This document shows positions 3,316 to 60,200 of a stretch of 64,000 nucleotides of DNA, in pieces (positions within the stretch are counted from its first letter, which is position 1; each line of letters starts with the position of its first letter). The stretch covers positions 332,501 to 396,500 of the forward strand of contig NW_027254954.1 of NCBI RefSeq assembly GCF_042242105.1. Direction: 5' to 3'. The position numbers were made by a program, and so were the translations under genes. This DNA is from Pempheris klunzingeri (Eukaryota; Chordata; Actinopteri; Acropomatiformes; Pempheridae). The notes beneath the pieces are model-generated. The model saw only the letters and a list, made by a program, of their open reading frames with translations, did not search any database and had not been told where the DNA came from.

Positions 3316-13675
<10,360 letters not shown>

Positions 13676-14240: not shown

Positions 14241-15651
14241 GTGAGACATGACAACTTTCTGCTGCTAAACTCAGATAAAACTGAAGTTATTTTGCTCCAA
14301 ACACCTCAGAGACACCTTTTCTACCAACATAACTGCTCTGGATGGCATCACTGTGGCCTCCAGCTCCACTGGGAGGAATCTGGAGTCTTATTGATCAGGA
14401 TTTGTCCTTTAACTCCCACATTAAACAGATTTCTAGAACTGCCTTTTTCCATCTACTAATGTTGTTAAAACCAGGTCCATCCTGTCTGGAGATGATGCAG
14501 AAACACTAGTCAACACATTAGTCACTTCCAGGTTGGATTATTTCTGTTCCTTATTATCAGGCTGCCCCAATAAGTCCTTAAAGACTCTCCAGCTGGTCCA
14601 GAACACTGCTGCTCCTGTTCTGACCAGAACTAAGAGAAGAGACCATCTTTCTCCTGTACTGGCTTCTCTTCACTGGCTTCCAGTAAAATCTAGAATAGAG
14701 TTTAAAATCCTTCTCCTCACCTCCAAAGCTCTTAATGTTCAGGCTTCATCATCTCTTAAAGAGCTCATAGTACCGTACTAATAATACATTTTTTATTTAT
14801 AGGCGCCTTTCAAGGCACTCAAGGACACCGTACAACACAGTTAAAAACAAACAGTGAAAAAGCAAGTTAAAAAGTCAAAAAATTTAAAAAACCAAGGGGT
14901 GGAAGATCTGCAGAATGATGTTACAGTGAGTAGGCTCGTTTAAACAGGTGGGTTTTGAGGTGAGATTTGAAGATGGTCAAAGTATTGATGTTCCTGATGT
15001 CCGGTGGGAGGGAGTTCCAGAGGCGGGGGGCAGAGCGGCTGAAGGCTCTGGACCCCACTAGAGCACTGTGCTCCCAGACTGCAGGCCTACTGGTGGTTCC
15101 TAAAGTCCTCTAAAGTAGTGATGGAGCCAGAGCTTTCAGCTATCAGGCTCCTCTCCTGTGGAACCTCCTTCCAGTCTGGGTTCAGGGGGGCAGACACCCT
15201 CTCTACATTTCAGAGTGGACTAAAAACCTTCCTTTTTGATAAAGCTTATATTTAAGGACTGGATCAGGTCTTAGACCAGCCCCTAGTTATGCTGCTATAA
15301 GCTCAGACTGCCGGGGGACTCCCATGATGCACTGAGCTCCTCTATTCTCTCTCCTCCTCTTCCTCTCCATCATTATGTCTCATGTCAGTCAAATGTCTGC
15401 CTCTAACTTGCTATCTTCCTCGGAGCCTTTCTGTGCTTTCTCATCTCTCAGGTTCCTGTGGATCCTGTGGATCCTGGTCCTGGTCCTGCTGATGTGGTTC
15501 TCTGGTTCCTGTGGATCCTGGTCCTGGTCCTGCTGATGTGGTTCTCTGCTTCATGAATCACTGCTGCGGATCATCGGACACTCGTCATGTTTTTCATGTC
15601 ACATTCTGTTAGTACTGTTAGTGCTGTTTGTGTTGTCTGTCTCTCTCTCTG

Positions 15652-23078: not shown

Positions 23079-24202
23079 TCACTGGGCTCTTCTTGTCAGC
23101 AGCATCTCTCTGATGTTGTCTTCAGCTTCTTTCACGCTGCGTTCAAGGTACACCTTCTTCTGCTGGAAATCACAACACAGTCCAGTTAGCCACAGACACA
23201 CACACACTTCAGCATGTATTTCTGTGTGTGTGTTTGTACCTCCAGCTCTTTGATCTTCTCATCAGCTGTTCTCTGTTTGTCCGTCAGCTGATTGTTTATC
23301 TCCTCCTTTGACTGAAGGATGAACCTGAAACACACACACACACTTCCTGTTTCTGATCCTGTGTGATGTCATTATGGTGTCATGCTTTAAGGTGAACCCA
23401 AATCCCAGTTGCCATGGAGACTCACATGCGGCCGACGCCCTCGTAGAGTCGCGTGTTGTCGGGCAGACTGGTGATCTCGGCATGAGTCAGCTTGGCGTGT
23501 TTCTGAACCCGAGTCAGCTGATCGATCTGCAGGTCGGCGAGCTTCACCTTCTGTTGCGTGTCGATCATCTTCACCTGCAGCTCTGAGAAGGCCTGTGGAG
23601 ACAGGAGGTCTCACTCTGACTGAAAACACCTGAACAGCCTACAGGAGGCCTCACTCTGACTGAAAACACCTGAACAGCCTACAGGAGGCCTCACTCTGAC
23701 TGAAAACACCTGAACAGCCTACAGGACGTCTCACTCTGACTGAAAACACCTGAACAGCCTACAGGAGGCCTCACTCTGACTCCTGGAAACTGCGCTGTGT
23801 TACTATGACAACTGACAGCTTTGATCCTCAGGTGAGTCAGTCTGGACCCACAGATCCGGATCCTCGGTCACTTTTACAGCTACCTGAAAAGCTTCCTGTT
23901 GGTCACGTGATACAACACCTGCATAGTGACAACAACAAAGTAACCAACGAGTCAGCACGTGCTACAACTAATACATCTCCACAACACTGTGTGAGAGAGA
24001 TCAGCGTTAGCCCCTCATGCTAACAGTTAGCTCCGGTGGTAGCTACAGTGTCGCTAACAATGTTGCTAACGGCTGGTGATCAAACTGCTGACTCATCGTT
24101 AAACAGAGAAAGCGCGTGACAGACAGGACTGACCGGCTAACACCAGATCACTGTGAAGCACTCCGTTACCTTCTTCAGCTCTAGGTCTATGGGCGCAGCC
24201 AT
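23079..24202 (-). CDS. pfdn1: Prefoldin subunit 1
   Basis: Beta-type subunit of the hexameric prefoldin co-chaperone that delivers actin and tubulin to the TRiC/CCT chaperonin. Minus-strand exons: 24202-24170, 23592-23426, 23324-23240, 23162-23079; 369 nt, exactly 122 codons plus stop, the same length as human PFDN1. Start MAAPIDLELKK is diagnostic. KVKLADLQIDQL and FILQSKEEINNQL lie in the two coiled-coil helices, and the end reads EAEDNIREMLLTRRAQ. Junction phases all close. The gene is head-to-head with dck and tail-to-tail with ttc1. A 40-bp minisatellite occupies the start of intron 1 next to the acceptor of exon 2. Confidence 0.97.
23603..23784. repeat. pfdn1: 40-bp minisatellite in pfdn1 intron 1
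   Basis: About 4.5 copies of a unit starting AGGAGGCCTCACTCTGACTG. On the coding (minus) strand the array lies immediately upstream of the exon-2 acceptor at 23593; the acceptor-proximal sequence resembles the unit. Confidence 0.93.
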
Positions 24203-24494: not shown

Positions 24495-27453
24495 ATGGCA
24501 ACTCCCCCGAAGAGAGCGCGCAATCTTCCCGCCGGTCCGCCGCGGGGCGGCAGCTCGTCCCGCAGAGAGAAGAAGATCTCCATCGAGGGAAACATCGGTG
24601 AGTCGTGACGCCGCAGCGATTCGGTCACCGCTGAGTTTAGTAACTGACCGGCGGCTGGCTGACTGACTAAACCCGTTATAGAGTCGGTTCTTCCGGTGAA
24701 TTGGGGATTTGTAGTTTGGAGCCGTATGAGTTGAAGTCTGTCCCGCCTTCAACGACAACATTGGCGCCAAAAGAAAGCGGTCAGAAGAACACCGCGATCA
24801 TAGACAGATCAATCACCAATAATCAATAACCTGTGCAGAGCTTACTTCCGGTCCGGTCGTCTGGGTAAAGTATTCAGAGTTGGAGTAGTATCTGGATGTA
24901 CAAATACTCAGTCCTACACACCGTTACTTTAGTAACATGAGTACCGAGCGCTTAATAAAATATCAGAAATAACAGTACTGCATTAATGAATGGTGCGTTC
25001 AAGTGTAAGAACGACTAACTGCACTGTTGACTCTGTTTATCTATTTGAGTATTTCGTGTCAAACTGTTGACGTCTTTTGTACGAAGTGTGGGTTACAGTG
25101 ACAGCAGCTTATTTTCATGGTTTTGTCTACGAGGTTTGGTCTGTCATCCACTCTGCTGGAAACTTTTAAAGTCTCTGATGACCGTGAACTCATCATCTGT
25201 CCGTCTGTCTCTCAGCTGCGGGTAAGTCCACCTTTGTGGGTCTCCTTCAGGGGGCGTCAGAGGACTGGGAGGTGATTCCTGAACCCATTGGGAAATGGTG
25301 CAACGTCCAGAACGACAGTGACAACGTTTACCAGGTGAAAATGCAGCACCTGAACACAACATACTGTCCTTTCACAATAAAAGCGTTGCCGTTTCTGCAT
25401 TAAAGGTTTAGGCCGACGACTGCTGCGGAGTAGGGATGTGCATTTCGAGCGAAAATACTGCAAAACAGTCACTGTGCACACACTCGGCACAGCGGGCACC
25501 GCTCATGCAAACTTCACTATATTGTTTTTTATTATCAGCCAATTGGCAGAATTACAGGTATGGATTAACCCTTAGAGGTCCCTGATCACGCCGGTGTGAT
25601 CAGATCACGTGATGTTTTCAAAACACCGTAACAAAAAACTAGGTCACCTGCTGCAGTCAACTTCAATCGAAAACTGTCTCCCATTTTTTGTTTGACGTTG
25701 ATAGACCATGTAAAACCGGCGATATGATAGTTTTAATTTGATAGTACAAAAATATTTATCCGTGTGTAAAAGTGGGATGGGCAGGCATTGCATCATATAT
25801 TCTGTGTGTGGGTGTGTAGGAGCTGAGCTCCTCCCAGAAGAGTGGCGGTAACCTGCTGCAGATGCTGTACACCAAACCGAGCCGCTGGTCCTACACCTTC
25901 CAGGTAATGCAGCTGACTCCGCCCACTCAGGTGGAACTGCTTACATCACACGAACCATTCACCTGTCTGTCTCTCTCTACCTGTCTGTCTGTAGAGTTAT
26001 GCGTGTCTCAGCCGGGTTCGTTCTCAGCTTCAGGCTCCGTCAGTCAAACTTCAGCAGGCAGAAAAACCTGTTCAGTTCTACGAACGCTCCGTCTACTCCG
26101 ACAGGTAACTCAATCACACACCCCCACCTGAGGCAGTGTGAGCAGGGCCTTACCTGTGTGTCGTTCCAACAGGTACGTGTTTGCGTCGAACCTGTTTGAG
26201 TGCAGTGACCTGACAGAGACGGAATGGGCCGTTTATCAGGACTGGCACACCTGGTTACTGAATCAGTTTGAACCCGACATCGCCCTGGATGCCATCATCT
26301 ACCTGAGGGCCCAGCCACAGGTAACTGTACTGCTAGTAGTACTAGTAGTACAACTGCTGGTACTGCTACTGCTACTGCTGGTATCAGTGTTGCTGTATTG
26401 TTCTGTGCTGCCTTCAGGCTCTGTGAGTTTCTGTGTATTTCTCAGCGCTGCATGCAGCGTCTGCTCCACCGGGGTCGGGAGGAGGAGGAGGGGATTCCTC
26501 TGGAGTATCTGGAGCAGCTGCACTTCAAACACGAAGCCTGGCTGGTGCACAGGAGCCTCAGGTAACCACTGGGAGCCTCTGGTGTCACCACTGGGCCACT
26601 GGGAGCCTCTGGTGTCACCACTGGGCCACTGGGAGCCTCTGGTGTCACCACTGGGCCACTGGGAGCCTCTGGTGTCACCACTGGGCCACTGGGCGCCTCA
26701 GGTGTCACCACTGGGCCACTGGGAGCCTCAGGTGTCACCACTGGGAGCCTCAGGTGTCACCACTGGGCCACTGGGCGCCTCAGGTGTCACTACTGGGCCA
26801 CTGGGAGCCTCAGGTGTCACCACTGGGAGCCTCAGGTGTCGCCACTGGGCCACTGGGCGCCTCAGGTGTCGCTACTGGGCGCCTCAGGTGTCGCCACTGG
26901 GAGCCTCAGGTGTCGCCACTGAGCGCCTCAGGTGTCGCCACTGGGAGCCTCAGGTGTCGCCACTGAGCGCCTCAGGTGTCGCCACTGGGAGCCTCAGGTG
27001 TCGCCACTGGGCGCGCTCAAAGCACGGGGATGCTGCATGATGAAGAATAGTGTGTGGACAGGACTAAAGGAGCAGTTTCAGTGTGTCTGTGAGAATGAAG
27101 ATGAGGATGATGAAGGTGTGAGTGCTCTGTCTCAGCAGATCTTTGACGTTAAACTATCTGATGTTTAGTGGTGCATTCAGGGTCAGACTGAAGAAAACAG
27201 ACCTTAACCTCAGCTCCGTGTGTGTGTTTGTACAGGTTGGACTTTGAGTATCTGAACCATCTTCCTGTTCTCATTCTGGACGTTGACGACGACTTCAAGA
27301 AGGATCGAATCAAACAGGAAGCGATCATCGACCAGGTTTCTTCAACTGATCAATAATTTGCTTTACTCTGCTTCGTAGTACTGTGTAGCACTTCCGATCT
27401 GACCTGAGGTCTGTTTCCTCCTGCAGGTCAGAGAGTTTCTCACTTCGCTGTAG
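24495..27453 (+). CDS. dck: Deoxycytidine kinase
   Basis: Phosphorylates deoxycytidine and purine deoxynucleosides in the salvage pathway. Exons: 24495-24597, 25216-25334, 25820-25903, 25995-26104, 26173-26320, 26446-26561, 27236-27335, 27427-27453; 268 residues against about 260 in human. MATPPKR start as in DCK; P-loop [20 protein letters not shown] and ERSVYSDRY hold the Arg and Asp of the base-binding pocket that mark dCK/dGK; LID region [15 protein letters not shown]. The end is REFLTSL. All junction phases close. From memory human DCK has seven exons, so one intron may be extra. The gene shares its promoter region with pfdn1. The donor of exon 6 has been amplified into the array at 26546-27012. 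dguok is less likely because the dCK-type N-terminus has no mitochondrial presequence. Confidence 0.95.
25335..25819. other. dck: dck intron 2
   Basis: No repeat family or exon recognised. A near-perfect inverted word pair around TCACGCCGGTGTGATCAGAT at about 25587-25606. Confidence 0.5.
26546..27012 (+). repeat. dck: Minisatellite derived from the dck exon 6 splice donor
   Basis: Roughly 20 units of GGGAGCCTCAGGTGTCACCA with an optional CTGGGCCA spacer. The exon/intron junction itself reads AGGAGCCTCAG/GTAACCACTGG, so each unit is a copy of the exon end plus donor. Early units carry CTCTGG, later ones CTCAGG. Open frames through the array are repeat artefacts. Confidence 0.93.
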
Positions 27454-33079: not shown

Positions 33080-34300
33080 GATGGGTCGAGTCACAAAGAG
33101 GCACAGGACCCTAAAGATGGGCCCTGGAAAGGCCTGGAGGAGGTTAAGGAGAAGTAGTGAAAGTTTCGTACACTTAAGATTCAGCACTTCCTCTCCAGCT
33201 CCTCCTGGAGGATCCAGACTGGTTTCCAAACCAGATCAGATATTTCATCTCTCCAGAGGGTTCAGGGTCTGGGTCTCGTCCCCAGAAGACCTCCAGGAGG
33301 ATCCATACCAGACGGTGAACTGCAAATCATTCAGAGCCACTGGTCCCGGTCTGAGGATGCCCACAGGATCAACGCCAACAGGATCACATCATCTGCAAAC
33401 ATTAACGCTCAGACTGCCGGGGGACTCCCATGATGCACTGGGCTCCTCTCTCCTCCTCTTCCTCTCCATCCTGATGCTTCATGTCTCTTTAATGTCTGTT
33501 ACTAACTCGGTATCTTCCCCGGAGCCTTTCTGTGCTTTTCTCATCTCTCAGGTTCCTGTGGATCCTGGTCCTGGTTCTCCTGCTGTGGTTCTCTGGTTCC
33601 TGTGGATCCTGGTCCTGGTTCTCCTGCTGTGGTTCTCAGGTTCATGTGGATCCTGGTCCTGGTCCTCCTGTTGTGGTTCTCTGGTTCCTGTGGATCCTGG
33701 TCCTGGTCCTCCTGTTGTGGTTCTCTGGTTCCTGTGGATCCTGGTCCTTGTTCTCCTGCTGTGGTTCTCTGGTTCCTGTGGATCCTGGTCCTGGTTCTCC
33801 TGCTGCAGATCGTCAGCCGCCGCCACTTTTTACTGATATTAGTCCTGTTATTATTATTCACATATTACCTATTGTAATGTTTTTCACTGTTACCATATTG
33901 ATCAGTATCAGTCATATTATCAGCACTATAGTTATTGTTATTATGGTTGTTGTTTCTTGTGCCCCCCCCACCCTGTCCAACCTCCACCCTGACAGAAAGC
34001 CCAGAAAGAGTTTGATCTGAGCTGTTCTTTATGGAAACGGTCTGAGATGAATTGGCTGCTGTATAAATAAAGATTGATTGAAACAGCAGAGATGAAACTC
34101 TGAGGTGGGCACCTCAGGGTGAGTCTCATCCACCCTTGGTGCCTCTGCCACGGATGTGGGTGAGTCTCCCATAGACTCGCGGCCTCCTCAGAGGACGTGT
34201 TGGTCGGGTGCAGGAGTACTTCTAAGTGCTCTTTCCACTGCTCGACGATATTCCTAGTTCGGGTCAGAACTCATCCCCAAACCCCCAGTATTGATCTGCT
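33080..34300 (-). mobile_element. Older LINE interrupted by an L2 insertion
   Basis: The minus strand of about 33370-33400 reads FADDVILLA, a reverse-transcriptase catalytic motif. The sequence CATCTGCAAAC at 33389-33399 continues as AGCAGAGATGAAAC at about 34085 after the inserted L2, so the two halves were once contiguous. Typical words of the same fish LINE follow to about 34300. Clade not assigned. Confidence 0.7.
33405..34080 (+). mobile_element. L2 3' end inserted in the older LINE
   Basis: Starts at CTCAGACTGCCGGGGG, carries six 44-bp VNTR units (33553-33812), and ends in TATAAATAAAGATTGATTG. It lacks any ORF sequence, so it is a strongly 5'-truncated copy. Confidence 0.88.
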
Positions 34301-35293: not shown

Positions 35294-38200
35294 ATGGGCT
35301 TCGCCGACCTGCTGGAGGAGGTGAGTGACCTGCTGTCTGATAATCTGATTACTCTGTCAAGTAATCTGACGACACTCATCTAGGTAGATGGGTGCAGGTG
35401 TGTGATGCAGGTGTGTTATGTGTGTTTCCTGTCCCCCTGGTTGCCGTGGCGAGGTGGGCGGGTTCGGCAGGTATCAGTGGTTCCATGTGACCCTGATCAG
35501 TTTACCTGGTTTACTGATGGCCAGTCAGAACCTGCTCAACAACTTTGTCTCCGGAATCCCCGCCCACCACTGCAGCCTGCCGGCCAATCACAGCCTCCGC
35601 AACCTGTCGCACCTCCAGGTAACCTGTCTGTCTGATCAGATTAACTGATGAATCAGCTCATTCTGTTGTAGATGGTTGTGATTCGTTTAATGTTTGGATG
35701 GATCGGTTAACTTTTGGAATTGATTGGTTTAACAGTTGGATGTGATCCGTTAACAGTTGGATGTGAATGGTTAACAGTTGGATGTGATCAATTTAACAGT
35801 TGGATGTGATTGGTTTTAACAGTTGGATGTGATCGGTTTAATGGTTGGATGTGATCAGTTTAACAGTTGGATGTGATTGGTTTTAACAGTTGGATGTGAT
35901 CGGTTTAACAGTTGGATGTGATCAGTTTAACAGTTGGATGTGATCGGTTTAATGGTTGGATGTGATCAGTTTAACAGTTGGATGTGATTGGTTTTAACAG
36001 TTGGATGTGATCGGTTTAACAGTTGGATGTGATTGGTTTTAACAGTTGGATGTGATCGGTTTAATGGTTGGATGTGATTGGTTCACGGTTGGATGGGGGT
36101 CATTGGTTGTTTCAGGTGAGTGAGGAGCAGCTGCTGAGAGCCTTCATTCCTCTGGACTCTTCAGGAAGTAGACTGGACCGGTGCAGGAGGTAAGTGGTGT
36201 CATCGTTGTTTTGCTTCGCATTGATGAAGACCCAATGATAACATCACTCCCTTTTCCCGTTATTGTCAGGTATGTGGAGCCTCAGTGGCAGCTGTTAACC
36301 ACTAACGGCTCAGCTAACGTCAGCCAGCTACGAACAGAAGGATGTTTGGACGGGTGGACGTTTGACCGCTCTGAGTTTCTCGCCACCACCGTCTCCGAGG
36401 TAATGACAAGAACCCTCATGTTCTTACAGACTGGGTTCAATGAACATAACAAGGTTAATGACGTCCAGGTAGTTCTATTAATCCGTTAGATGGTTCTAGT
36501 GATGTTTTAAATGTTTTAATAATCCTTTAAATCAGGGGTGTCAAACTCATTTTAGTTCAGGGGCCACATGCTGCCTAATTTGATCTCAAGTGGGCGGCTT
36601 TATTTATATAGCACCAATTCATACCAGACTGTTTCCATAAAAAGCAGCTCAGACCAAACTCTTTAATTCAGAGGCCAAAGATTCAGGAATTCAACAGGAA
36701 GGATTCAAGAATCCCCACAGAGCAGCTCAGAGATTAGATTAGGACCCAGTGGAGGAAGAACTCCCCTTTAACGTGAGGAACTCCCCTTTAACAGGAAGAA
36801 ACCTGGAACAAACCCACTCTCAGATGTGTGTGACTTTCTGCCGGGGTCCGTGTTGGGTGGAGGTTGGAGAGAGAGAGAGAGAAAACAAACAGCAATCAAC
36901 ATACTAACAAAAGTAGGAATGTGTAAATTAGTAATATGGTAGCACTGAAATACTTGACGAATAACAGGACTAATATCAGTAAAAAGTGTCAGTGGCTGAC
37001 AATCCGCAGCAGTGATTCATGAAGCCAGAGAACCACAGCAGGAGAACCAGGACCAGGATCCACAGGAACCAGAGTACCACAGTAGGAGAACCAGGACCAG
37101 GATCCACAAGAACCTAAGAACCACAGCAGGAGAACCAGGACCTAACCCTAGTCCTAATTAGGGATGATAGATGATGGACTAAAATCAGTTTTGTTTTTTT
37201 TTAATGTCATGCGATCTATCTGCACTACCTTCGCGATCGACCGGTAGATCGCGATTGACGTATTGGGCACCCCTGGTTTAGATGGTGTTTTAGGTGTTCT
37301 AATACTCCATTAGATGGTTTTCATGGTTCCTTAGATGGTTCTAGTGATCAGTTAACCGGTTCTAGTGGTGTTTTTAGATGTGCTAACAATCCTTTAAATG
37401 GTTCAAACGATTCCTTAGATGATTCTAGTGATCCGTTAGATGGTTCTAATGGGGTTTTAGATGATCTAATAGCTCGTAAGATGATTCTAGAGATCCGTTA
37501 GATGGTTCTAATAGTGTTTTAGATGTTCTAATAATCCGTTAGATGGATCTAATGGCGTTTTAGAGGGTCTAATAATCCTTTAGATCATATATGTCAAACT
37601 CAAGGATAGGATAGGATACAATTATATACGGCCCACGAGATCATTTCATGTGACTATTAACAACGGCCCGTCGGTAAACAGCACTCCCACCTCTAATACT
37701 ACAAATCCCACGATGCACTGAACAGCTACCGCGCTAGTCAGGACCCGTGCAGCAGCCCCTCCTCCCGCAGGTATAATGACACACCGATCAGCGGATCAAT
37801 GCATCATCAGCGCTGTTATAGTGACACTTAAGCTAGCCCCCCCAAAATAAATGGCTAAAGGAAAAGTGGACTTTGAAAACAGAGACTTTCAAAGCAGGTG
37901 GGGGGCAGAGTTTTACCTGTTTGTCGATATCGGAGGTGAACCTGTGTGTCTTGTTTGTGGAGCTGATGTGGCCATAATTAAAGAATATAAATATAAGACG
38001 ACACTACAGCAGGATAAGTACAAAAAAGAAAAAAATTATTTAAAATTGTATTTATTTTATTGAGGAAAAGTTGTTGAAGTTTGGCTGTTTAAATTCATAT
38101 TTCTGGATAAAATATATATATATTATTATTATATTATATTATATACTATAATAAAAGAGTCACTTTTAGAGTCTTCACTAAATGTTGAGCCCGTTTGGCC

Positions 38201-44544: not shown

Positions 44545-46330
44545 CTATTCAATTTTTTCAGTTCAATTTATTTGTATAGCCCAATATCACAACAGAGTGT
44601 CTCACAGTGCTTTACAAAGTTCACTGAAATAAACAAGAAGTGTAAGCGAACAAACAATCTAATAAAGAGTCCAGCAGTCGATGAGGACAATGGATCAGTC
44701 CGGTGGATCAGTCCGAGGCATCACCTGCCCTTTATGACCCTCCTTCTTCGGGAAGGAAAAACTCAAAAAACCCAGTGGGAAAAGAGAAACCTCCAGGAGC
44801 ACCACAGTGAAGGAGAGATCCAGCTCCCAAGGACGGACAGGCTGTAGCCTTGGACAGACGCACATCCATTGGCTGATGGAGAACCACATCAGCGGGACCA
44901 GGACCAGGATCCATAGGAACCAGAGAACCACATCAGCAGAACCAGGACCAGGATCCACCGGAACCAGAGAACCACATCAGCGGGACCGGGACCAGGACCA
45001 GGACCCACAGGAACCAGAGAACCACATCAGCGGGACCGGGACCAGGATCCACAGGATCCACAGGAACCTGAGAGATGAGAAAGCACAGAAAGGCTCCGAG
45101 GAAGATAGCAAGTTAGAGGCAGACATTTGACTGACATGAGACATAACGATGGAGAGGAAGAGGAGGAGAGAGAATAGAGGAGCTCAGTGCACCATAGGAG
45201 TCCCCCAGCAGTCTGAGCCTATAGCAGCATAACTAGGGGCTGGTCTAAGGCCTGATCCAGCCCTTAAATATAAGCCTTATCAAAAAGGAAGGTTTTTAGT
45301 CCACTCTGAAATGTAGAGAGGGTGTCTGCCCCCCTGAACCCAGACTGGAAGGAGGTTCCACAGGAGAGGAGCCTGATAGCTGAAAGCTCTGGCTCCATCA
45401 CTACTTTAGAGGACTTTAGGAACCACCAGTAGGCCTGCAGTCTGGGAGCACAGTGCTCTAGTGGGGTAGTACGGTACTATGAGCTCTTTAAGATATGATG
45501 GAGTCTGAACATTAAGAACTTTGGAGGTGAGGAGAAGGATTTTAAACTCTATTCTAGATTTTACTGGAAGCCAGTGAAGAGAAGCCAGTACAGGAGAGTT
45601 TGGGAGTTATACCAGGGAGCTTGTCTCTTTTCTTTAATTCTCTTCTTTTTTAGAGGGGCAATAGAGTCTAGTGTCATTCGCAGTGAACCTGCAGCACTAT
45701 CGACCAGATAATCAATTTGGGAGGGGCTCAGATTAACATGGGGGTCGTCCACAGCACAGGGACACACTGGCTGAAATACTGAAGGAATCACCTCCTTAAA
45801 TTTGGCAACAGCACTATCAGATAAGGATCTAGTGAGGACCTCTCTGTCATATAGAGCATAGTCCTGTAGCAAGAAATCAAATGTTATCAGGTAATGGTCT
45901 GATAAAATAGAGTTATGTGGGAAGACTGTTAACTGTTCAGTTTCAACACCATCAGCCAGAACAAGGTCAAGAGTGTGGTTAAAACAGTGGGTTGGTTCAT
46001 TTACACTCTGGGAGAAGCCAATTGAGTCCAGTAGTGAGACAAAAGCAGTGCTAAGACTATCATTATCATTATCAACATGAATATTAAAGTCACCTACTAT
46101 AATCACTTTGTCCACACTGAGGACTAAGTCTGATAAAAACTCTGAAAACTCAGTTAAGAATTCAGAGTCTGGACCAGGAGGGCGGTACACTATGACAACC
46201 AACACTGGTTTTAGAGTTTTCCAGGTTGGGTGTGAGAAACTAAGAGTAAGACTTTGAAAGGAGGTATAATTAAGTTTGGGTCTAGGTTGGACTATTAAAC
46301 TAGAGTGAGACTAGAGACTACAGTAGTAAT
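44545..46330 (-). mobile_element. Internally deleted L2 LINE, fused to another LINE tail
   Basis: 44545-44850 is the tail of a second LINE family (TTTATTTGTATAGCCCAATA). Then come four 44-bp VNTR units (44883-45063) and the L2 3' region to about 45594. There it jumps directly to the ORF2 endonuclease end. The minus frame 46205-45561 reads VIVYRPPGPDSEFLTEFSEF, then GDFNIHVDN, SDHYLITF and KRQAPWYN. The endonuclease is well preserved, but most of the reverse transcriptase is missing. Confidence 0.88.
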
Positions 46331-57225: not shown

Positions 57226-60200
57226 TTTATCTATACAGCTCCAGGTCACAGCAGTGTTCTCTCAGACTGTTTCCATAAAGAGCAGCTCAGAACAAACTCT
57301 TTCATTCAGAGACCAAAGATTCAGGAATTCAACAGGAAGGATTCAAGAATCCCCACAGAGCAGCTCAGAGATTAGATTAGGACCCAGTGGAGGAAGAACT
57401 CCCCTTTAACGGGAAGAACTCCCCTTTAATGGAAGAACTCCCCTTTAACGGGGAGAACTCCCCTTTAATGGAAGAACTCCCTTTTAACGGGGAGAACTCC
57501 CCTTTAATGGAAGAACTCCCCTTTAACAGGGAGAACTCCCTTTTAACGGACAGAACTCCCCTTTAATGGAAGAACTCCCCTTAACAGGACGAAACGAGAG
57601 AGAAAACAAAATACTAACAGCAACTACAGTACTGACAATAGGAACATGACTAATAATGATCAATGACAATAGTTAGTGAATAATAATAACAGGACTAATA
57701 TCAGTAAAAAGATCTGCAGCAGTGATTCATGAACCCAGAGAACCACAGCAGTAGAACCAGGACCAGGATCCACAGGAACCAGAGAACCACAGCAGGAGAA
57801 CCAGGACCAGGATCCACAGGAACCAGAGAGATGAGAAAAGCACAGAAAGGCTCCGGGAAGATACCAAGTTAGTAACAGACATTAAAGAGACATGAAGCAT
57901 CAGGATGGAGAGGAAGAGGAGGAGAGAGGAGCCCAGTGCATCATGGGAGTCCCCCGGCAGTCTGAGCCTATAGCAGCATAACTAGGGGCTGGTCCAAGAC
58001 CTGATCCAGTCCTGAACTATAGGCTTCATCATTAAGGATGGTTTTTAGTCCACTCTTAAATGTAGAGAGGGTGTCTGCCCCCCTGAACCCAGACTGGAAG
58101 GAGGTTCCACAGGAGAGGAGCCTGATAGCTGAAAGCTCTGGTTCCATCACTACTTTAGAGGACTTTAGGAACCACAGTTCTTTATAAAACTCTTTTTACA
58201 TAAATCTGATTTTAATTGCAGTTTTATTTTCATTTATTTATTTATTTTTTTCTTTTAATCTTATTTCATCACTTCATTCCAATTTTTTTTGGTTAGTGTT
58301 TGCAAAGTAACCTGTGTGAACAGGTGTGTCTGTCTGTCCAATCAGAGTCATGATTACCCAACAGAGGGGCGGAGCCACAAGGTGCACAGGGTCAACCTGC
58401 CAATAGGGGAAGATGGACAGAACAACCAGCCAATAGGAGCACAGGGGGCGGCGTCGGACATGATTTACACCATTGAAGACGTCCCACCGTGGTACCTGTG
58501 TATTCTACTGGGACTACAGGTGAGACTGGGCTGAAACTGGGACTGCTGAATTTAGATTGGAACTACTCTTTTAGACTGGGTTTAGACTGGCCTTATTCAG
58601 TTTAGACTGGTCTGGTTGGGGTTAGACTGGAATTAAGCTGGTCTGGTTCTGTATCGACTGCTCTGGTTTGGTTTAGACTGGGCTGGTTCAGCTAGGACTG
58701 GTCTGATTCAGGTTAGACTGGTCTGGTTCGGGTAAGAATGGTCTGGTTTGGTTTAGACTGGCCTGGTTTGGATTAGGGCAGCTCGGTGGTGTGGTGGTTA
58801 GCACTGATGCTTCACAGCCAGAAGGTTCCAGGTTCATATCTGCAGGTTTGAGGCTTGAACCTTCCTGTGTGGAGTTCTCATGTTCTCCTCCTGTCTGTGT
58901 GGGTTCTCTCTGGTTCTCCAGCTTCCTCCCACAGTCCACAGACATGCAGGTTAATTGGTGGCTCTAAAGGTGGGAGTGTGAGTGGTCGTCTGTCTCTGTA
59001 TGATGGTGACCAGTCCATGGCGGACCCCACCTCTCACCCAGTGTCAGCTGGGATTGGCTCCACCCCCCACATGGGTTTAGGTTTAACAGTTTTGTCTCTA
59101 CCAGGTGTGAACTGTGACAGCTTCAGGTTGGTGAACAGGTCAAGAGAGGCCATGTTTTTTTCCAGTTTGCAATGAGAAGCAAAGACCAATGACAGGCCAG
59201 TGAGCATTTGTTTGTCCAGTCAGGTGAAGGAAGGACTGATGCTGATGTCACCTATCACCTGTCCTAACCTGTCCTCAGCACTACCTGACGTGTTTCAGCG
59301 GGACGGTGGCGGTGCCATTTCTTCTAGCTGAGGCCATGTGTGTTGGTCGGGATCAGCACGTCATAAGTCAGCTGATTGGAACCATTTTCACCACAGTCGG
59401 AATCACAACTCTGATCCAGACCACTGTGGGAGTCAGGTGAGGTGGGTGGGTGGGTTTGGGGGGGGGGGGTGAGATAGGGGACCAGGTGAGTCTGACAGAT
59501 GTGTGTGTGTGTGTATAGACTTCCTCTGTTTCAGGCCAGTGCGTTTGCCTTCCTGATTCCTGCACAAGCAATCCTCAGTCTGGACCGCTGGAGGTGTCCC
59601 AGTGAGGGTAAGACAGTCTATCTGTCTATTTGTCTGTCTCTGTCTGTCTGTCTGTCTCTCAGATGATGGAAGTCATGTGACCTGTTGTTTGGTTGCTCTG
59701 CAGAGGAGATTTATGGGAACTGGAGTCTTCCTCTGAACACGTCACACGTGTGGCAGCCTCGAATCAGAGAGGTACCTAATCACAGTCTGTACGGTGGTCT
59801 GATTGGTCCAGGTGAGTCGCGATGCAGCAGACAGGTACCTGGAGGGCAGCTTCTGTTGACGAAAAAACCTGGATGTGTGATGAAGTTGTAGAGGTCACTG
59901 AGGTGGGGGTGGGTATCATTAGCCAGTCAGTCCCCCCCAAACACTGACCCTGGAGGGGGGCGTCCTGTGGGGGTATGAACTACGAGTCATTCAGTTCCTT
60001 TATAAACGGAGGGAAAACTATTCATTTATTTATATTTATAAATTGATTTATTTATTTGTGTGTGTGTGTGTGTGTGTGTCAGATCCAGGGTGCCATCATC
60101 GTGTCCAGTGTGGTGGAGCTCTTCATTGGTCTGCTCGGGTTGCCAGGTTTGCTGCTGGAGTTCATCGGGCCGCTCACCATCACTCCAACTGTCTCACTGA

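Follow-up and report, generated by a model that had tools for sequence, protein, structure and literature searches.

A deoxynucleoside kinase gene of Pempheris klunzingeri carries, directly after one of its coding exons, a splice-donor-containing minisatellite, that is, a tandem array whose unit adjoins the exon and includes its donor. The gene lies within the window, by which we mean the whole 64,000-nucleotide stretch of DNA analysed here. In the explanation that we favour and hold to be probable, the array was seeded locally across the donor and then expanded, the native donor remains dominant, and the array is near-neutral. The features concerned are the following.

24495..27453, plus strand: dck-like gene with 8 coding exons and 268 aa; translation without internal stops, with PDB and Pfam matches
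24495-24597, 25216-25334, 25820-25903 and 25995-26104, plus strand: coding exons 1-4
26173-26320, 26446-26561, 27236-27335 and 27427-27453, plus strand: coding exons 5-8
26446..26561, plus strand: coding exon 6, whose last 10 nt (26552-26561) are common to the exon and the array unit
26551..26570, plus strand: copy 0, made of the exon tip and the native donor, AGGAGCCTCAG/GTAACCACT (11 exon and 9 intron bases)
26562..27235, plus strand: host intron of 674 nt, 449 nt of which are array
26563..26565, plus strand: in-frame TAA (AG/G TAA) if the native donor is skipped, from the sequence and the reading frame
26571..26720, plus strand: copies 1-5, 30-nt units; copies 1-4 are identical, with CTCTG/GTGTCA, and copy 5 has CTCAG/GTGTCA
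26721..27019, plus strand: copies 6-17; eight are 22-nt units, copies 7, 8 and 10 are 30-nt units, and after copy 17 comes a partial 18th

By conceptual translation, the spliced coding sequence gives an intact kinase of the dNK family. A PDB deoxycytidine kinase (dCK) matches it over residues 1-268 with an E-value of 2e-108, a PDB deoxyguanosine kinase matches it at 3.3e-81, and the full-length ORF contains the Pfam dNK domain (PF01712; 2e-65), all of which places the product among the deoxynucleoside kinases (dCK/dGK). We take the matched dCK chains to be human. The name dck, given in the initial annotation, is correct at the family level (dNK) and fails as a designation of the closest dCK relative. 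Indeed, over exons 3-8, a paralog of the same genome, on C19, is identical to the human dCK chain at 139 of 191 residues (72.8%), and the window gene at 116 of 191 (60.7%); the two genes are 59.8% identical to each other. If the canonical dck ortholog is defined as the genome's closest gene to human dCK, it is the C19 paralog that is closer, and the window gene thus appears to be a second dck-like gene. In the paralog, the equivalent place is also occupied by an intron (AA/gtgagc), from which the array is absent. The two genes also differ at the 91-bp phase-0 intron 25904-25994, which interrupts a stretch that is uninterrupted in the paralog; this intron would have been either gained in the window gene or lost in the C19 gene.

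At the junction of exon 6 and its intron (26561/26562), the sequence reads CACAGGAGCCTCAG/GTAACCACTGGG, and the array follows on from the exon tip and donor without a break. Splitting the array at GCCTC[AT]GGT delimits 17 intronic copies at 26571-27019 and a degenerate partial 18th. The units are 30 nt long in eight copies and 22 nt long in another eight, the final copy being 22 nt plus 11; the 30-nt unit corresponds to the 22-nt one with an additional GGGCCACT. The GT is kept in all 17 copies. It follows CTCAG in 13 of them and CTCTG in four (copies 1-4, the nearest to the native donor), and copies 6-17 all read CTCAG/GTGTCA or CTCAG/GTGTCG. Every copy carries GTGTCA/G where the native donor has GTAACC. 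The initial annotation had described a minisatellite built from the end of exon 6 and its donor, most copies having CTCAG/GT, and this description is borne out. It had also counted about 20 tandem copies; the copies are tandem, as stated, and the number was slightly high (17 intronic copies and a partial one).

The last 10 bases of exon 6, GGAGCCTCAG, are identical, in register, to those of the array unit (10/10). Among 188 control CAGGT sites, taken from the whole window minus the sites at 26500-27030, none matches at 9/10 or better and a single one reaches 8/10. In free local alignment, which is weaker evidence than the in-register match, the share of shuffled tails with as good a score is 0.001 for the last 12 nt, 0.0055 for the last 20 and 0.0055 for the last 40, and it is 0.0064 when the 20-nt tail is shuffled with its final CAG retained. 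For the whole exon it rises to 0.06, which is not significant. Of the seven donor-side 20-nt tails of the gene, that of exon 6 aligns to the array with a score of 20, ahead of the second-best tail with 14. Resemblance farther upstream in exon 6 was sought, and the best local alignment spans the 10-nt tip only. Hence, from the in-register comparison with the controls and from the local alignments, the match of the exon end to the array unit is real and limited to the tip.

The exon is not merely array, since its tip codes for a stretch alignable to dCK as protein, HRSLR in the window gene and HRTLK in the PDB chain. The Ser of this stretch corresponds to a Thr at the matching codon of the dCK chain as well as of the C19 paralog. 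It leaves room for a conversion from array to exon, in which an array of independent origin would have converted or overlapped the exon tip. The non-significant alignment of the whole exon can be read in the same sense, or as a sign that the match is coincidental. Against both stand the 10/10 match, in register and contiguous with the array, and the alignment of the exon end to dCK at the protein level, and we consider an independent origin or a coincidence unlikely.

A DNA search of the fish's own genome returned three places: the locus itself, an array on C23 and the homologous exon of the C19 paralog. The C23 match (68%), a candidate second home, was rejected, because it is an GGGAGCCTCTGG array in which no GTGTCACC core was seen. 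The search, which skips simple repeats and common words, thus gave no second home for the unit, and for this reason we regard a tandem duplication at the site itself, spanning the donor, as the best account. We infer that the seeding ran from the exon into the intron: a segment of 20-22 nt straddling the exon 6 donor would have been tandemly duplicated into the intron, and ordinary minisatellite turnover would then have expanded it to 17 copies. The founder or early copies would have had GTGTCACC instead of GTAACC. That this difference is common to all 17 copies fits a founder already weak as a donor; the opposite change, at the native donor rather than in the founder copy, may also account for it.

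Donors were scored with a PWM made from vertebrate donor frequencies and by pairing with the U1 5' end. The native donor, CAG/GTAACC, reaches 3.04 bits and -8.0 kcal/mol. The 13 CAG copies range from -0.01 to 0.48 bits with -6.7 kcal/mol, and the four CTG copies, nearest to the native donor, are the weakest, with -2.11 bits and -3.7 kcal/mol. By PWM, all 17 copies lie 2.6-5.2 bits under the native donor. Among the six other donors of the gene, five score 3.08-4.74, and the last, CAG/GTTTCT at 27336, scores -2.24 bits and -5.6 kcal/mol, which puts it under all 17 copies by PWM and makes its U1 pairing weaker than that of the 13 CAG copies. This last donor is presumably in use, since the reading frame needs it, and a low score therefore does not bar use; leaky use of internal copies as donors may occur. 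The host intron also holds, outside the array, a donor-like AAG/GTGTGA at 27116, which exceeds the native donor by PWM (3.90 vs. 3.04 bits) and pairs less strongly with U1 (-6.0 vs. -8.0 kcal/mol).

Averaged over the nine bases of a donor, the predicted unpaired probability is 0.63 for the native one, the same value being obtained with the array removed, and 0.17-0.51 in the 17 copies. The gene's other six donors, at 0.08-0.48, overlap the copies, so that accessibility fails to separate used from unused sites. The RNA at 26520-26720, with a folding energy of -95.2 kcal/mol, does not fold more stably than shuffles (z -1.09; 21 of 200 shuffles as stable), and we propose no special structure for it.

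Reading past the first donor leads directly to a stop in the frame AG/G TAA, as the initial annotation had pointed out, and its further claim that any array donor would truncate the kinase agrees with the reading frame: each would include the in-frame TAA, and the last 41 residues would be lost. Exon 7, whose skipping would shift the frame, is 100 nt long and another junction comes after it. From the coordinates, whichever copy is used, at least 116 nt separate the stop from the last exon junction downstream of it, and the general rule for nonsense-mediated decay thus predicts decay of transcripts using array donors.

These properties bear on a second explanation, raised as a possibility in the initial annotation, in which the array would serve as a decoy or a length-dependent modulator of splicing, its internal donors competing for U1 and its length setting the level of the kinase. 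The retention of CAG/GT in 13 copies and of GT in 17, the in-frame stop that would follow use of an internal donor, and the lower PWM score of a donor presumed to be used in the same gene all agree with such a role. In human ABCA7, where an intronic VNTR offers a parallel, retention of one unit is described at 2 ± 1%, and VNTR length as correlated with skipping of exon 19 and lower expression (PMC5954066); the same account gives unit retention as unaffected by VNTR size, which goes against a decoy. In the window gene, all 17 copies score under the native donor and the four nearest are the weakest, and a decoy function appears improbable to us. With local seeding, the splicing outcome that we infer is that the native site, the copies being weak donors, would mainly handle splicing; at most, some leakage to internal donors would yield a transcript that includes the stop and could undergo nonsense-mediated decay. 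The array itself would most likely be near-neutral.

A third explanation, compatible with local seeding, is that the array aids the native donor. Splice donors as a rule have a G at +5; the native donor lacks it, and from 9 nt past this donor the array, whose copies all start G-rich, would supply a cluster of G-triplet intronic enhancers. Indeed, 24 of the 26 GGG runs of the host intron fall within the 449-nt array. A human survey takes GGG to be an intronic splicing enhancer and reports intron retention to be more frequent at lower GGG density (PMC1831480). The survey also describes introns retained at low frequency as slightly higher in GGG density than non-retained ones (PMC1831480), which speaks against this explanation. 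Moreover, one repeated unit is one event, which deprives the GGG density of statistical weight; GAG stands in for GGG at the start of two of the 17 copies, and the gene's six other introns hold 0-5 GGG runs. We regard an enhancing role as quite unlikely. The confidences attached to these alternatives overlap partly with that of the favoured explanation, the readings being not fully mutually exclusive.

Minisatellites are common in the window. A list of arrays with periods of 6 and more, merged by hand, comprises 61 distinct arrays, 33 of them of at least 100 bp, and 16,318 bp in all. With the number of splice sites assumed to be 40-90, the window annotation being partial (ORF scoring and 10 Pfam queries, seven of which gave a family), 0.72-1.61 of the 33 arrays of at least 100 bp are expected to be seeded across a splice site by chance. 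Two other arrays of the window run into acceptors, that of a prefoldin-like gene and that at 8962-9108. One to three splice-site arrays are thus seen, not far from the chance expectation.

The first of these arrays (23601-23781) belongs to a minus-strand gene beside dck, prefoldin-like by its Pfam Prefoldin_2 match and presumably pfdn1. The 3' end of one of its introns consists of four 40-nt repeats, and a partial fifth extends into the acceptor inferred near 23595. The second (8962-9108) has three copies of 44 nt; in each, an acceptor-like CTGTCAG is separated by 14 nt from a donor-like GTAACT. A partial fourth copy terminates in an acceptor-like CTGCAG at 9112, and the putative exon that follows has no Pfam match. 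Similar 44-nt units (CCACAGCAGGAGAACCAGGACCAGGATCCACAGGAACC...) occur on both strands in separate arrays, at 5142-5706, 15451-15552, 33546-33805, 37025-37142, 44879-45073 and 57735-57829, and their recurrence suggests a dispersed repeat. Taken together, the dck-like array and the two arrays that reach acceptors could be read as meaning that in this genome splice junctions act as seeds of minisatellites, that the latter are tolerated only with a founder change that weakens the signal, and that graded decoys tune expression by copy number. We consider this very unlikely.

The anatomy is of interest in its own right, since the array overlaps the end of a coding exon and places next to the native site a graded set of 17 copies of one donor, as an internal experiment. 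Should splicing use the internal donors, array length would act as a heritable dial on a kinase; if they are unused, the array would show what silences near-identical sites. The ABCA7 array, of the same anatomy, is described as associated with Alzheimer's disease risk (PMC5954066).

Judged from sequence anatomy, the dck-like array is of the same kind as those of ABCA7 and IFI6. The minisatellite of IFI6 (6-16) reportedly provides multiple splice donors, in the words of the title of a 1995 study by Turri. In ABCA7, the human intron-18 VNTR is described as having a 25-bp unit that flanks exon 18, with 23.7 repetitions in the reference, and use of the next unit's donor as retaining one unit, with a frameshift and a stop (PMC5954066). 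As in the dck-like gene, the unit includes the exon's donor, the first GT of the VNTR being the native donor of exon 18 (PMC5954066). In contrast, the ABCA7 VNTR is given as starting at the GT, exon bases going unmentioned in the part of the source used here, whereas the dck-like unit takes in 10 exon bases; and for ABCA7 lengths between people and splicing are reported as measured, whereas the dck-like array is described from the sequence of one assembly. In IFI6, two downstream repeat units are described as acting as donors, giving three mRNA species (PMC4526556). Both minisatellites contain multiple donor copies; the downstream donors of IFI6 are said to lead to protein isoforms, whereas any donor of the dck-like array, if used, would lead to an immediate stop.

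Human duplicated genes are described as having variable internal tandem repeats at exon-intron boundaries, with units of about 30 bp, which may switch on cryptic splice sites and give rise to novel introns (PMC2812944). The dck-like array resembles them in unit length and position; however, the human cases are given as modifications of primate-specific segmental duplicates (PMC2812944), whereas the dck-like repeat lengthens an intron positioned as in the paralog. As in the growth hormone gene of Sparus aurata, for which variable copy numbers are reported (PMC3045353), the minisatellite lies in a fish intron. In the section of that report drawn on here, the donor is not stated to belong to the unit, unlike in the dck-like array (PMC3045353). 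With respect to these systems, what is new is only the gene and the overlap of the array with 10 exon bases.
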